This document shows positions 6,416-11,988 of a stretch of 64,000 nucleotides of DNA, one piece after another; position 1 is the first letter of the stretch, and each line of letters begins with the position of its first letter. This stretch comes from Methanofollis formosanus (GTDB taxonomy: Archaea; Halobacteriota; Methanomicrobia; Methanomicrobiales; Methanofollaceae). The stretch is taken from assembly GCF_019633745.1 (NCBI RefSeq), contig NZ_CP037968.1, positions 1,308,789-1,372,788 of the forward strand, given 5' to 3'. Both the position numbers and the translations under genes were made by a program. Under the pieces are notes generated by a model. The model did not search any database. It saw nothing but the letters and a program-made list of their open reading frames with translations, and was not told the DNA's origin.

Positions 6416-7234
6416 CCTATTCATCTCCGTCGGCCAGAGCCTTTTTGTTGCCGGTTGTTGGCGCGGTCAGGTCGTCATGTCCCCCCTTTCAGGTGCCGTA
6501 CCGGCGGAGGGACCGGCAAGAAGATGGAGGAAGACGTGGCGATCAAACGTGCCGCCCTCAATCGTAGAATCGTTCCTGGAATCTCGCACCGGGGGGTTGC
6601 ACCTCCCTGACCACCCCCCGACGACGATAGCCAGGGGGCGGCGAAGTGAACACGATCCCCCCCGATTCTCCTCTCTTGAAAAAGAGCGATCAAGCGGCGA
6701 GAAATTTTCATCCCGTATGCTTGAGCCGGAGGTTCATGAAAAATTACCATGAAAATGATCCAGACGATCCTCTCTTCAGGTTTTCATGAGAGTTTGAACT
6801 CGTCATATCACGTTGAAGCCGATACGCAGAGGATAGAATATTCTTCTGATGGATCGGCCGCCCCCATCGACGAGATTTCCCTGCCATCTCGCACCGGGGG
6901 GAAACCCCCCGGACCCCCCACGACGAAGATAGATGGGGGCGGCGATGGAGCGAGGTATCAACCAGTTTTCCTGTCTTGAAAAGAGAGAGAGAGCAAGTGA
7001 CAAGAAATTTTCATCCCGTATGCTTGAGCCCAGGGCTCATGCCCAATTCTACAGAGCCCAAAAAATACGTACCTGTCTTTTGTGTGATGATCGGAATACT
7101 TCCCGGAATATTTTTCATAACAACGCCGGATACGTCGTCGATATTCCGATAAACCCTTCCATTGCAGAAAATTCCCAACCTATATGTAGAGGGAGGACAA
7201 TCTCCTCTCATCGGAGAAAAGGAGGGAAGATATC
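6416..7234. repeat. Divergent intergenic gap with two composite repeat elements
   Basis: No gene is seen. Two composites lie in tandem in the same orientation: a GC-rich body at about 6480-6703 followed by a truncated hairpin element at 6704-6739, then a longer body at about 6745-7007 followed by hairpin copy 3 at 7008-7057. The second body includes a module of about 150 bases starting near ATGATCCAGACGATCCTCTC that recurs at 57361 and, inverted, near 63700. From 7060 to 7234 is unique AT-richer DNA with a TATA-like CCTATATGTAG near 7180 and GGAGGG before the next gene. Confidence 0.7.
7008..7057 (+). repeat. Hairpin element copy 3
   Basis: Full-length copy: TTTCATCCCGTATGCT, then the inverted repeat TGAGCCC/GGGCTCA (7025-7039), then TGCCCAATTCTACAGAGCC and an A-run. 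The stem bases differ from copy 1 but still pair. A shorter copy with stem TGAGCC/GGTTCA lies at 6704-6739. Confidence 0.75.
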
Positions 7235-9088
7235 ATGGGAAACGGACACGAAAAAGATAAGATCGTCTTTGCAGCGACGATGGCCTCGACCTTCGAACCC
7301 GACTCGATGACCAACGACAAACTCGAGGCGGCGACGAAAGGGCACGGCTCTCTGGTCATTCCGGTCTACGCCGCGGCGAACTCCATCGCCGAAGACCTTT
7401 TCTGTTCGATCGCCGGGCCGGAGATGAGCCTGATGGGCCGCATGACCGTCGTGGACGCCGCCGCCGGCGAACTGCCCCTGGACATGGTCATCGAGAAAGC
7501 GGTGCGGGAGGCGATGAACGCCGGCGCCGAACCCGCGAACGCCGCCCTCATCGTGGCCTCGCTCGCGTATTTCTCGGGGTCGTGCGCCAGGTCCGGCGTC
7601 CCGCTCGGCAACCGGAAACTCGGCGCCATCGCACGGATCCACGCCGGAGCGGCACGGACGAGTGCGATCGCCCTCGTCACCGGCAAGTCCACCCACCGCA
7701 TCCAGGCGTTCCCGGCCTACATGGCCATCTACGAGGCGCTGGTCGAGAAAAAACTGACAAAAGTCGACGGCTCCGTCCTCCCCCCCTTCATCTCGGGCGG
7801 GACGATCTACGGCCACTCGGCCCTCGGCGAAGACTACAACATCCCAGAACTTGCCTACAACGCCGCAAAGGTCGGCACCGAGGCGATGATGAAGAGCATG
7901 GCCGGCGCGGGCATCACGCCGCTCGCCCTCTGGCCCGCCCTCATCGGGGCGGCGGTGACGATGGAGATCGTCCACCCCGACGCCATCCTCGGCGAGGAGT
8001 TCGGGAAGTTCGGCCGCGTCGACTCGTCGTACCTCGCGGGTAAGGGTGCGCGGGACGCCGCCGGTCTGCCTGAAAAACTGCATATCAGGGGTACGCACGA
8101 GGAGTACGACACCGCCAAGGTGCTCGGCGACTTCGGTCTGATCCTCAAGGACATCGGCGGGCCGTCGGTCATCGGGTCGATGGCGCTCTCTGAAATTTTC
8201 GCCGCCTTCGAGGAAGCCGCATCCATCGGCGCCGGGTTCTCGGGCGGACCGGTGAACCCGCCCCTCGGCCACCTCGAGGGCGACTGCGTCCCGGCCCTCA
8301 GGCTGCTCATGCAGCATCACGGCGACGTCTTCGCCGTCGCCGAAGCGATCCGCGACTACAAGATGAACGCCTTCATCGACCCCGAGATGGCGCTCTGCGG
8401 CCTCAACACCATCGCCAGAAAGGCCGAGCAGGTGACCCGCGGCAAGGTCACGAAGGCCTGCATCCTTGCCTCCGAAGGCGTGCGGGACCGCGCGATCTAC
8501 CGGCGGGCCGCCCATACCTACGACATCATCAAGGAGGGGAAGACCGTCGCCGACGCCACGCACATCCTCGACGAGGAGAGACTGGCCTATGTCGAGCGGC
8601 GGGGTTCGGCGATCCTCTCGGCGTTCACCGGCCGCGAGATCGCGTTGAAGTTCACCGCAATCAAGGCACACGGTCGCCGGACCGACAAATTCACCGCACG
8701 CTACTGGGGTTTTGACTCCAATGTCTCGTACGACGTCTCCATCGACGGGAAACCGTACCATGTCGAGAACCTCAGCGGAAAAGAGGTGCCGGCCTTCGCC
8801 CTGGAAGGGAAGAACCGGGACGATCCCGACTGGCCGGTCGCCCTCTTCTGCGGCTCCATCCTGACCCAGGAACTCCAGTACATCGGCCACACCATCATCA
8901 ACATCACCGTGCCCGCGGCGGTCGCCGCCCTCATCGGGATGGAGGCGAAGGACGCCGCGAAAGGGGCCGAGGACGGGGCCTTCCTGACCCGCGCCATCCC
9001 GGGCGCCGACGAGAAGGCCTTCGAGGTGGCAAAACTCGCACAGCGGGTGTACGCAAAGATCAACGAACCCTTCCCGCCCGCAGCATGA
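7235..9088 (+). CDS. Unrecognised 617-residue protein coupled to larC
   Basis: I do not recognise this family. It is a long, soluble, alanine- and glycine-rich protein with no signal peptide or clear membrane segment. Striking segments are SGSCARSGVPLGNRKLGAIA near residue 115, YGHSALGEDYN near 190, FISGGTIYGH, NPPLGHLEGD near 345, and a C-terminal CGSILTQELQYIGHT. It contains conserved-looking Cys, His, Asp and Glu residues compatible with a metal or cofactor enzyme. The start is ATG 7235 with GGAGGG 8 bases upstream. Its stop overlaps the larC start (ATGA), so the two are co-translated. LarC inserts nickel into the pincer nucleotide, so a role linked to that cofactor is a hypothesis. It shows no LarA-like motif that I can see. 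Confidence 0.85.
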   Translation: MGNGHEKDKIVFAATMASTFEPDSMTNDKLEAATKGHGSLVIPVYAAANSIAEDLFCSIAGPEMSLMGRMTVVDAAAGELPLDMVIEKAVREAMNAGAEPANAALIVASLAYFSGSCARSGVPLGNRKLGAIARIHAGAARTSAIALVTGKSTHRIQAFPAYMAIYEALVEKKLTKVDGSVLPPFISGGTIYGHSALGEDYNIPELAYNAAKVGTEAMMKSMAGAGITPLALWPALIGAAVTMEIVHPDAILGEEFGKFGRVDSSYLAGKGARDAAGLPEKLHIRGTHEEYDTAKVLGDFGLILKDIGGPSVIGSMALSEIFAAFEEAASIGAGFSGGPVNPPLGHLEGDCVPALRLLMQHHGDVFAVAEAIRDYKMNAFIDPEMALCGLNTIARKAEQVTRGKVTKACILASEGVRDRAIYRRAAHTYDIIKEGKTVADATHILDEERLAYVERRGSAILSAFTGREIALKFTAIKAHGRRTDKFTARYWGFDSNVSYDVSIDGKPYHVENLSGKEVPAFALEGKNRDDPDWPVALFCGSILTQELQYIGHTIINITVPAAVAALIGMEAKDAAKGAEDGAFLTRAIPGADEKAFEVAKLAQRVYAKINEPFPPAA

Positions 9089-10293
9089 AGACGCTGCTCA
9101 TCGACCCCCGGGTGGGGGGGATTGCCGGCGATATGCTCGTCGCTGCGCTGGTCGACCTCACGGGTTCGACAGAACCCCTCTTCACTCTTGCCGGAGCGAT
9201 CGCCGCTCTGCCCGGATGTTCGACCTTCGATGTAAGCGTCACCGAGACCGAGAACGGGATCAGGGCGAAGAGACTCTCGATTGAGATTGCCGAGGAGAGG
9301 AGCGGGTCGGACGGCGACCTCGCGGCGGCGATGGAGGAAGTGATCGGTGCCGTCGGCCTCTCCAGCAGGGCGGCGGCGACGGCCAGGGCCGTGCTGACTG
9401 ACCTGATCGAGGCAGAGAAGAGGCTGCACCCCGCGGGGTTCTCCCGCCACACCGTTGCTTCGGCCGACACGATCTTCGACATCCTCGGGCCGCTCCTCCT
9501 GATGGAGGAGGCCGGGCTTTTGGGCTGTCCGGTATATGCGACCCCGCCGGCCCTCGGGGGCGGGACGGTCCCGACCGGCAGGGGCGAGGTCGGCGGTCCG
9601 GCGCCCGCCGCTCTTGAGATCTGCGCGATGCACCGGATCCCGATCGCGGAGAGTGCGCTTGCGATGGAACTCACCACCCCGACCGGTGCCGCCCTCCTCG
9701 CCAACCTGGCAATCGTCCGGGACCGCTTCCCGGCGATGGTCCCCACCCGCATCGGGTATGGTGCGGGCACCCGCGAGAACAACGGGCGGCCGAACCTCCT
9801 GCGGATCGTCGAGGGGGAGGTTGGGGATCTGGTGGAAGAGCGGATCGTGATCCTGGAGACCAACCTCGACGACATCACCGGGGAGACGGTCGGGTATACC
9901 TTCGAGCGACTCTTTGCGGCCGGCGCGGTGGACGTCTTCGTCACCCCGGCGATCGGGAAGAAGCAGCGGCCGGTGCAGGTGCTCTCGGTGATCACCGATC
10001 ATGCCCGGTACCCGGACCTGATCAGGATCCTGATGGACGAGACCGGTACCCTGGGAGTGCGGGTGCGGGAAGAGCCGCGGCTCGTCGCCGACCGCTCACG
10101 CGAGGCGGTGGAGGTCGCGGTGGCCGGGCAGACCTTCCGGGTGCGGGTGAAGACCTCGTGCACCGGCGGGCGGGTGGTGGCGGTCAAGCCCGAGTACGAG
10201 GACATGAAGGAGATCGCCCTCACCCTCGGCATCCCGTTCAGGCAGGTGGCCGGAGAGGTGCACCGGCAGATCCCGGCCGTCCGCAACGAATAG
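9085..10293 (+). CDS. larC: LarC-type nickel insertion protein (DUF111)
   Basis: In the characterised family, LarC inserts nickel into the pyridinium-bisthiocarboxylate mononucleotide to make the nickel-pincer nucleotide cofactor. The 402 residues show family hallmarks: N-terminal GGIAGDMLVAALVDL, the HPAGFSRHTVASADTIFDI segment with histidines, PTPTGAALL-like ELTTPTGAALL, GYGAGTRENNGRPN, and ETNLDDITGETVGY. The start ATG 9085 overlaps the stop of the 617-residue gene by 4 bases. No larB, larE or larA is nearby, so those would have to be elsewhere or the pathway is partial. A non-coding repeat region follows. Confidence 0.93.
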   Translation: MKTLLIDPRVGGIAGDMLVAALVDLTGSTEPLFTLAGAIAALPGCSTFDVSVTETENGIRAKRLSIEIAEERSGSDGDLAAAMEEVIGAVGLSSRAAATARAVLTDLIEAEKRLHPAGFSRHTVASADTIFDILGPLLLMEEAGLLGCPVYATPPALGGGTVPTGRGEVGGPAPAALEICAMHRIPIAESALAMELTTPTGAALLANLAIVRDRFPAMVPTRIGYGAGTRENNGRPNLLRIVEGEVGDLVEERIVILETNLDDITGETVGYTFERLFAAGAVDVFVTPAIGKKQRPVQVLSVITDHARYPDLIRILMDETGTLGVRVREEPRLVADRSREAVEVAVAGQTFRVRVKTSCTGGRVVAVKPEYEDMKEIALTLGIPFRQVAGEVHRQIPAVRNE

Positions 10294-10854
10294 GATGTCA
10301 TCGAGGTTCTGATGTCCAGATCGACTCTGTTGAAACCCTTTATTTTCCGGATGCGAGTTTGATGCAACTGCCTTCCCCCATCATCTCGCCGGGGGCTAGC
10401 ACCCCGGCGTAAGCGTGTGGGAAGGCGGGGTGATCAAGCGTGCCGCCCTCATCGGAGAATCGTTCCTGGAATCTCACACCGGAGGTTGCACCCCCCTGAC
10501 CCCCCACGACGAAGAGAGCCGAGGGGCGGCAATGAAGTGGTGGTCCCATATGGTGTCCTGCTCCGAAGAGGGAACAAGGATCCACGCATCAGAGACCACC
10601 AGGAATGTTCATCCCGTATGCTTGAACCCGGTATTCGTGCCGAATTCTACACAGCCGATTATGAAGAGTGTATTGCCGTCCACCGCCTATCGCGGGGGAC
10701 CGGGGGGCGGCCAGACCCCCACAGAGAGAGCAATCCGGATGACCTCAACAAAACCCGATATCCTATTTTCCTTCGACCAACCGCAGACAGAAAGGTCGAA
10801 CAGCCATAAAAAAAGACCAAACCACATAAATGCAAAGGAGTCTTACCAAAAATT
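10294..10854. repeat. Gap with composite repeat element, then lipoprotein promoter region
   Basis: No gene is seen. A GC-rich body at about 10370-10606 leads into a hairpin element copy (10607-10656). A second GC-rich stretch (CCACCGCCTATCGCGGGGGA) near 10680 resembles a broken body. Unique AT-rich DNA from about 10760 to 10854 carries a TATA-like CACATAAATG and AAGGAG before the lipoprotein gene. Confidence 0.6.
10607..10656 (+). repeat. Hairpin element copy 4
   Basis: TTCATCCCGTATGCT, the imperfect stem TGAACCC/GGTATTCG, then TGCCGAATTCTACACAGCC. It is upstream of, and parallel to, the lipoprotein gene, so this copy is not behind a gene end. Confidence 0.65.
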
Positions 10855-11537: not shown

Positions 11538-11845
11538 TCCGGAGAAGAGAGCCTCTTTTCATCACCTCAGCCTCCCTGTGAACTGGATCCAATCGTCCTG
11601 CTTCAGGTTTTCAGCGGGTGCGGTGGAGATCGAATGATGGGGGGAGGTGCAAGGCGTGATGATCAGACGTGCCGCCCCCATCTCTGGATCGTTCCTGGTA
11701 ATCTCGCACCGGGGGGTTTCACCCCCCGAGACCCCCCACGACGAAGATAGGGCGGGGGCGGCAATGCAACAAGCATCCCATCTCTTCTCCTCCTTCAAAG
11801 GGGGAGCACGGATCCATGCTCCTTTAGAGACAGAGAACCACGATC

Positions 11846-11899
11846 ATTTTCAATCGCGTATGCTTGAGCGTGGCGCTCATGCCCAATTCTACAAAGCCC
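11846..11899 (+). repeat. Hairpin element copy 5
   Basis: TTTTCAATCGCGTATGCT, stem TGAGCG (11865-11870) / CGCTCA (11874-11879), then TGCCCAATTCTACAAAGCCC. The stem sequence differs from copies 1 and 3 with pairing preserved. Confidence 0.75.
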
Positions 11900-11988
11900 G
11901 GAAAAAAATTCTGTGAAGGGGGCGGCAATCGAGCGGGGTAATCCTGCAGAGATCCGACCCGAAGGGCGAGCAAGACCTCTTCCCCACC

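Follow-up and report, generated by a model that had tools for sequence, protein, structure and literature searches.

The window analysed here, a stretch of 64,000 nucleotides from Methanofollis formosanus, encodes a 617-residue protein (hereafter the 617 protein) whose stop codon overlaps the start codon of a larC gene. This raises the question of what a large protein does when it is encoded so close to the enzyme that inserts nickel into the nickel-pincer nucleotide (NPN). The NPN users proven so far are, to our knowledge, all members of the LarA superfamily (Lar_N, PF09861), which comprises racemases and epimerases that act on 2-hydroxyacids with the help of NPN and includes lactate racemase. 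LarB, LarE and LarC are dedicated to NPN (PMC11796402, PMC11770544) and suffice for its synthesis in known systems (PMC11796402). In about 15% of surveyed genomes larB, larC and larE are present but larA is missing, and an as yet unidentified, non-LarA NPN user with a distinct sequence and fold has been predicted (PMC11796402).

We first describe the locus. The genome (2.97 Mb, a single contig) has its closest relatives among the Methanomicrobiales. Both reading frames are present and share an ATGA, as the earlier note had described (table 1). The first has a strong Shine-Dalgarno sequence and none was seen upstream of larC, which makes translational coupling from the first gene to the second likely. 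To call this co-translation obligate goes too far, since the gap between the genes varies elsewhere and some homologs lack an adjacent larC. The downstream product is a true LarC, the NPN cyclometallase, matching Pfam Ni_insertion (PF01969, E = 1.8e-94, 317 bits) and carrying both LarC1 and LarC2 above the NCBIfam cut-offs; the 617 protein itself is not a LarC. Its sequence makes this LarC a candidate for inserting nickel into P2TMN in a CTP-dependent manner. The genome has a second larC at another place (G000:C1:1516738-1517859), and larB and larE are likewise away from the locus. A dispersed intergenic repeat is present in four copies that flank the 617-larC unit and neighbouring genes (window 6531-7065, 10422-10663 and 11651-11905). 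Its copies consist of blocks of 40-80 nt that are 60-83% alike, and it is possibly a mobile or transcript-processing element.

Table 1. Features of the 617-larC unit (positions in the window).
Feature	Position	Strand	Remarks
Shine-Dalgarno of the 617-aa gene	7219..7226	+	AAGGAGGG, strong
617-aa gene	7235..9088	+	ATG start; undescribed family; candidate NPN-using non-LarA protein; no family or PDB match
ATGA stop/start overlap, 617-aa gene/larC	9085..9088	+	
larC paralog coupled to the 617-aa gene	9085..10293	+	402 aa, ATG start; Pfam and NCBIfam matches
LarC1 domain	9328..9810	+	residues 82-242 of the larC product; NCBIfam TIGR00299, 117.7 bits (cut-off 90)
LarC2 domain	9844..10209	+	residues 254-375 of the larC product; NCBIfam NF052512, 125 bits (cut-off 50)

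The 617 protein belongs to a single, highly conserved family found in Methanomicrobiales, in Methanosarcina-type and other archaea, and in rhizobia. Full-length homologs with long invariant motifs occur in archaea and bacteria at 40-98% identity, hence the reading frame is not a chance one. Homologs were found at 25 loci of the genome collection searched, in 22 of the 61 Methanomicrobiales relatives and in 46 of the 393 genomes of the phylum, with divergent members (45-50%) in other families. They also occur in Thermoproteota, in a Desulfuromonadaceae MAG and on five rhizobial replicons (approx. 41% identity, with 95% of the length aligned); none was detected in viral contigs and phages. The label Methanosarcina-type rests on one genome (G396), which we take to be Methanosarcina acetivorans C2A. 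An apparent 1183-aa fusion at one locus (L081) comes from an upstream extension of the open frame, and the fusion is unsupported. In the literature searched, most subscription papers lying outside it, we found no report of this family.

Around 50 alignment columns are invariant across 39 members of the family, including H194, H247, H346, K151, K396, R134, R141, E199 and D200. The earlier note could not place the protein in a family, and our searches agree: it has no sequence match in Pfam, NCBIfam or the PDB, and the 39 members have no convincing Pfam match. Weak matches to DUF7065 (E = 0.21), to Fe-ADH_2 (E = 0.0096, 4 of the 39 members) and to PDB profiles (the best, at E = 0.004, being a designed repeat protein) were judged to be due to chance. 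The statement that LarA-type motifs are lacking is also borne out, with no Pfam match to Lar_N or another LarA family in any of the 39 members at E ≤ 0.1 and none to LarA for the window protein in NCBIfam.

A model of the protein as a whole was built with 43 sequences, rhizobial ones left out (mf2f3dc0f7516, mean pLDDT 86.5, pTM 0.88), and replaced a poor prediction made from 11 close homologs (pLDDT 48). Most of the model is helical, and a small beta element lies near residues 469-510. Comparisons with the PDB by Foldseek and VIA-align revealed no clear fold relative and no match with E ≤ 0.001; the best Foldseek E was 0.12, and the best VIA-align match (Z 5.8) covered 63 residues of a designed protein. 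Among the PDB matches listed there was no LarA. These results establish neither a new fold nor the absence of a LarA one. The profile and Foldseek searches suggested in the earlier note thus gave no clear match to an unrelated enzyme family. Some fold matches were transporter-like, but hydropathy indicates at most one borderline segment per protein, so that a membrane protein is unlikely and the 617 protein is probably soluble.

What regularly accompanies the family is the LarC2 portion of LarC. Of the distinct homologs, a single duplicate of the window having been taken out, 61 have downstream DNA long enough to judge, and in 57 of these a gene with this domain lies directly downstream on the same strand. 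The partner is a full LarC in the window's clade and a stand-alone LarC2 domain matching NCBIfam NF052512 in Methanosarcina-type archaea, f14 genomes and rhizobia. The partner thus differs from LarC in being often LarC2 alone, or LarC2 with a shortened LarC1. At four loci (L012, L013, L028, L029) the 617 homolog is coupled to a LarC shortened to 341-359 aa, whose LarC1 part is degraded and whose LarC2 is conserved; this form is intermediate between full LarC and stand-alone LarC2. The two architectures follow the tree of the 617 protein and the LarC2 link is present in all three deep branches, although the long branch of G482 leaves the order of the basal splits uncertain. A larC that appeared split at one locus (L033) is interrupted by an assembly gap (N bases) and does not signal a frameshift.

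LarC2 binds CTP, and structures of it have been solved (6bwo, 6bwq, 6bwr). In the stand-alone LarC2 of the Methanosarcina-type the DDxxGE motif is changed to DNxxCD, and nucleotide binding may consequently be altered. The stand-alone partner also resembles (E = 2.5e-5) MK0293 of Methanopyrus kandleri (PDB 3c19, 6iwj), an uncharacterised, stand-alone LarC2-like protein. The four homologs without an adjacent LarC2 are L026/G234, L099/G330, L094/G997 and the divergent protein of G482, a large genome from the same phylum as the MAG of L033. The latter protein (L095, G482:C243:1-3530) is a 38% paralog without the GFSGGP motif. It adjoins genes for a UroD-type methyltransferase and a corrinoid protein, as read by eye from the translation.

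The operons of other hosts place the family among the genes for NPN. In Methanosarcina-type loci LarC2 comes after 617, and in many cases LarB and a full LarC come next (NCBIfam). In rhizobia, the order is 617-LarC2-LarC-LarE-LarB-HoxN/NixA nickel permease, as annotated in three records (Rhizobium tropici CIAT 899, CCGE531 and CCGE532). The unannotated Ciceribacter and CB3090 have reading frames in the same order as far as LarB, with families confirmed by profile. The rhizobial operons therefore hold the complete larB, larC and larE set and the Methanosarcina-type ones LarB and LarC, and larA is absent from the operons of both groups that we examined. Together with the LarC2 neighbour, these operons strongly support the link to NPN that the earlier note had drawn. 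In R. tropici CIAT 899 and Rhizobium CCGE531, larE has an in-frame stop near residue 135 (L084:15613-16419, L088:15544-16350); the gene is uninterrupted in CCGE532, Ciceribacter and CB3090.

We then turned to co-occurrence across genomes. LarC, LarB and LarE are near-universal in the 61 Methanomicrobiales. No true LarA is recognisable among them, in line with the earlier remark that larC lacks an evident client in these methanogens. PF09861 matches there are pieces of approx. 45-70 residues scoring at most 24.8 bits, in reading frames of mostly 370-420 aa that are perhaps, as we infer, DUF362-like relatives of the same clan; these frames are a lead toward a further NPN user. All 22 genomes in which the 617 gene or a remnant of it is present have two or more LarC matches, as do 3 of the 39 others (Fisher test, p = 1e-13, a value that ignores kinship and the adjacency itself). 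In two cases (L045, G046) remnants of 617 and larC are found together, a joint decay. Among eleven further genomes, LarB and LarC are present in all seven with known high completeness. As the earlier note had proposed, 617 homologs frequent without larC in genomes lacking larB and larE would speak against the link; this was not observed, apart from one partial MAG without a LarB match and one Thermoproteota genome in which no LarB or LarC was found. As many as 39 of the 61 Methanomicrobiales keep larB, larC and larE with neither LarA nor the 617 gene. Hence, the 617 protein cannot be their only NPN user, and a further one probably remains in this order.

In two domains of life, the family keeps company with LarB, LarE, LarC and a nickel permease while LarA is missing, and the simplest reading of this is that the family uses NPN. 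We favour the 617 protein being itself an NPN-dependent enzyme, a candidate role to which, judging from sequence, we give a probability of roughly 0.6, over it being a partner that modifies or loads the cofactor. The latter, in which 617 and LarC2 would modify, load or store NPN, for example by making or handling a cytidylylated form or by serving as a chaperone for a further enzyme, seems rather unlikely to us. It would explain why the constant partner is half of a biosynthetic enzyme, why rhizobia have an extra LarC2 adjoining 617 on top of a complete LarC, and why the neighbourhoods of 617 share no recognisable catalytic enzyme. Yet a client served in this way should recur beside 617, and none does. 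Moreover, LarBCE alone make NPN in known systems (PMC11796402), most Methanomicrobiales with larBCE lack 617, and a protein of this size with so many invariant columns looks like an enzyme.

The link to NPN could also be secondary, the 617 protein depending on nickel or a nucleotide and LarC2 acting as a general nucleotide or metal module. The homolog in G997, where neither LarB nor LarC was found, and the G482 paralog near corrinoid-methyltransferase genes point this way, but the finding for G997 is read from a genome without a completeness figure, and G482 carries LarB and LarC elsewhere. Since archaeal and bacterial operons alike encode the NPN-specific LarB (and in rhizobia LarE) together with 617, we regard this explanation as improbable. 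Less probable by far is a LarA homolog diverged beyond recognition. The 617 protein does resemble LarA in its operon place with larB, larC and larE (here with a nickel permease), in its conserved His and Lys residues and in its proposed use of NPN. It differs in its greater length (approx. 600 aa), its constant LarC2 partner and the lack of any sequence match in 39 members; the mostly helical predicted fold without a clear PDB match also argues against homology, without being decisive. LarA uses a Lys as tether and a His as nickel ligand, and their positions cannot be matched to the invariant His and Lys of 617 without homology.

Returning to the 617 protein as an NPN-dependent enzyme, it would found a new family using the NPN made by LarB, LarE and LarC, and would take LarA's place in the operon while being unrelated to it in sequence. 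Nickel would be imported first, LarB and LarE would make the bis-thiocarboxylate pyridinium mononucleotide, and LarC would insert nickel. We infer that the LarC2 partner may then hand the cofactor to the 617 protein or stay as a permanent subunit, and that invariant His and Lys residues may hold NPN. By analogy with LarA, the reaction would probably be a hydride-transfer isomerisation or oxidoreduction. We also make, tentatively, a broader proposal: methanogens and rhizobia would share the first NPN-dependent enzyme class that is unrelated to LarA, one that has a new fold and a LarC2 subunit as second component. Such a class recalls the non-LarA NPN protein predicted in cyanobacteria with larBCE and without larA, for which a distinct sequence and fold are expected (PMC11796402); this likeness is one of description, our searches for 617 having covered genomes other than cyanobacterial ones.

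The 617 family is thus a concrete and testable candidate, in two domains of life, for the predicted non-LarA user of NPN. Among its hosts are methanogens open to genetic work (Methanosarcina) and a cultivated Rhizobium that carries the entire operon on a single plasmid. If the assignment is true, it would widen the uses of NPN in methanogens and extend both the chemistry and the biology of a cofactor that is among the newest organometallic ones.
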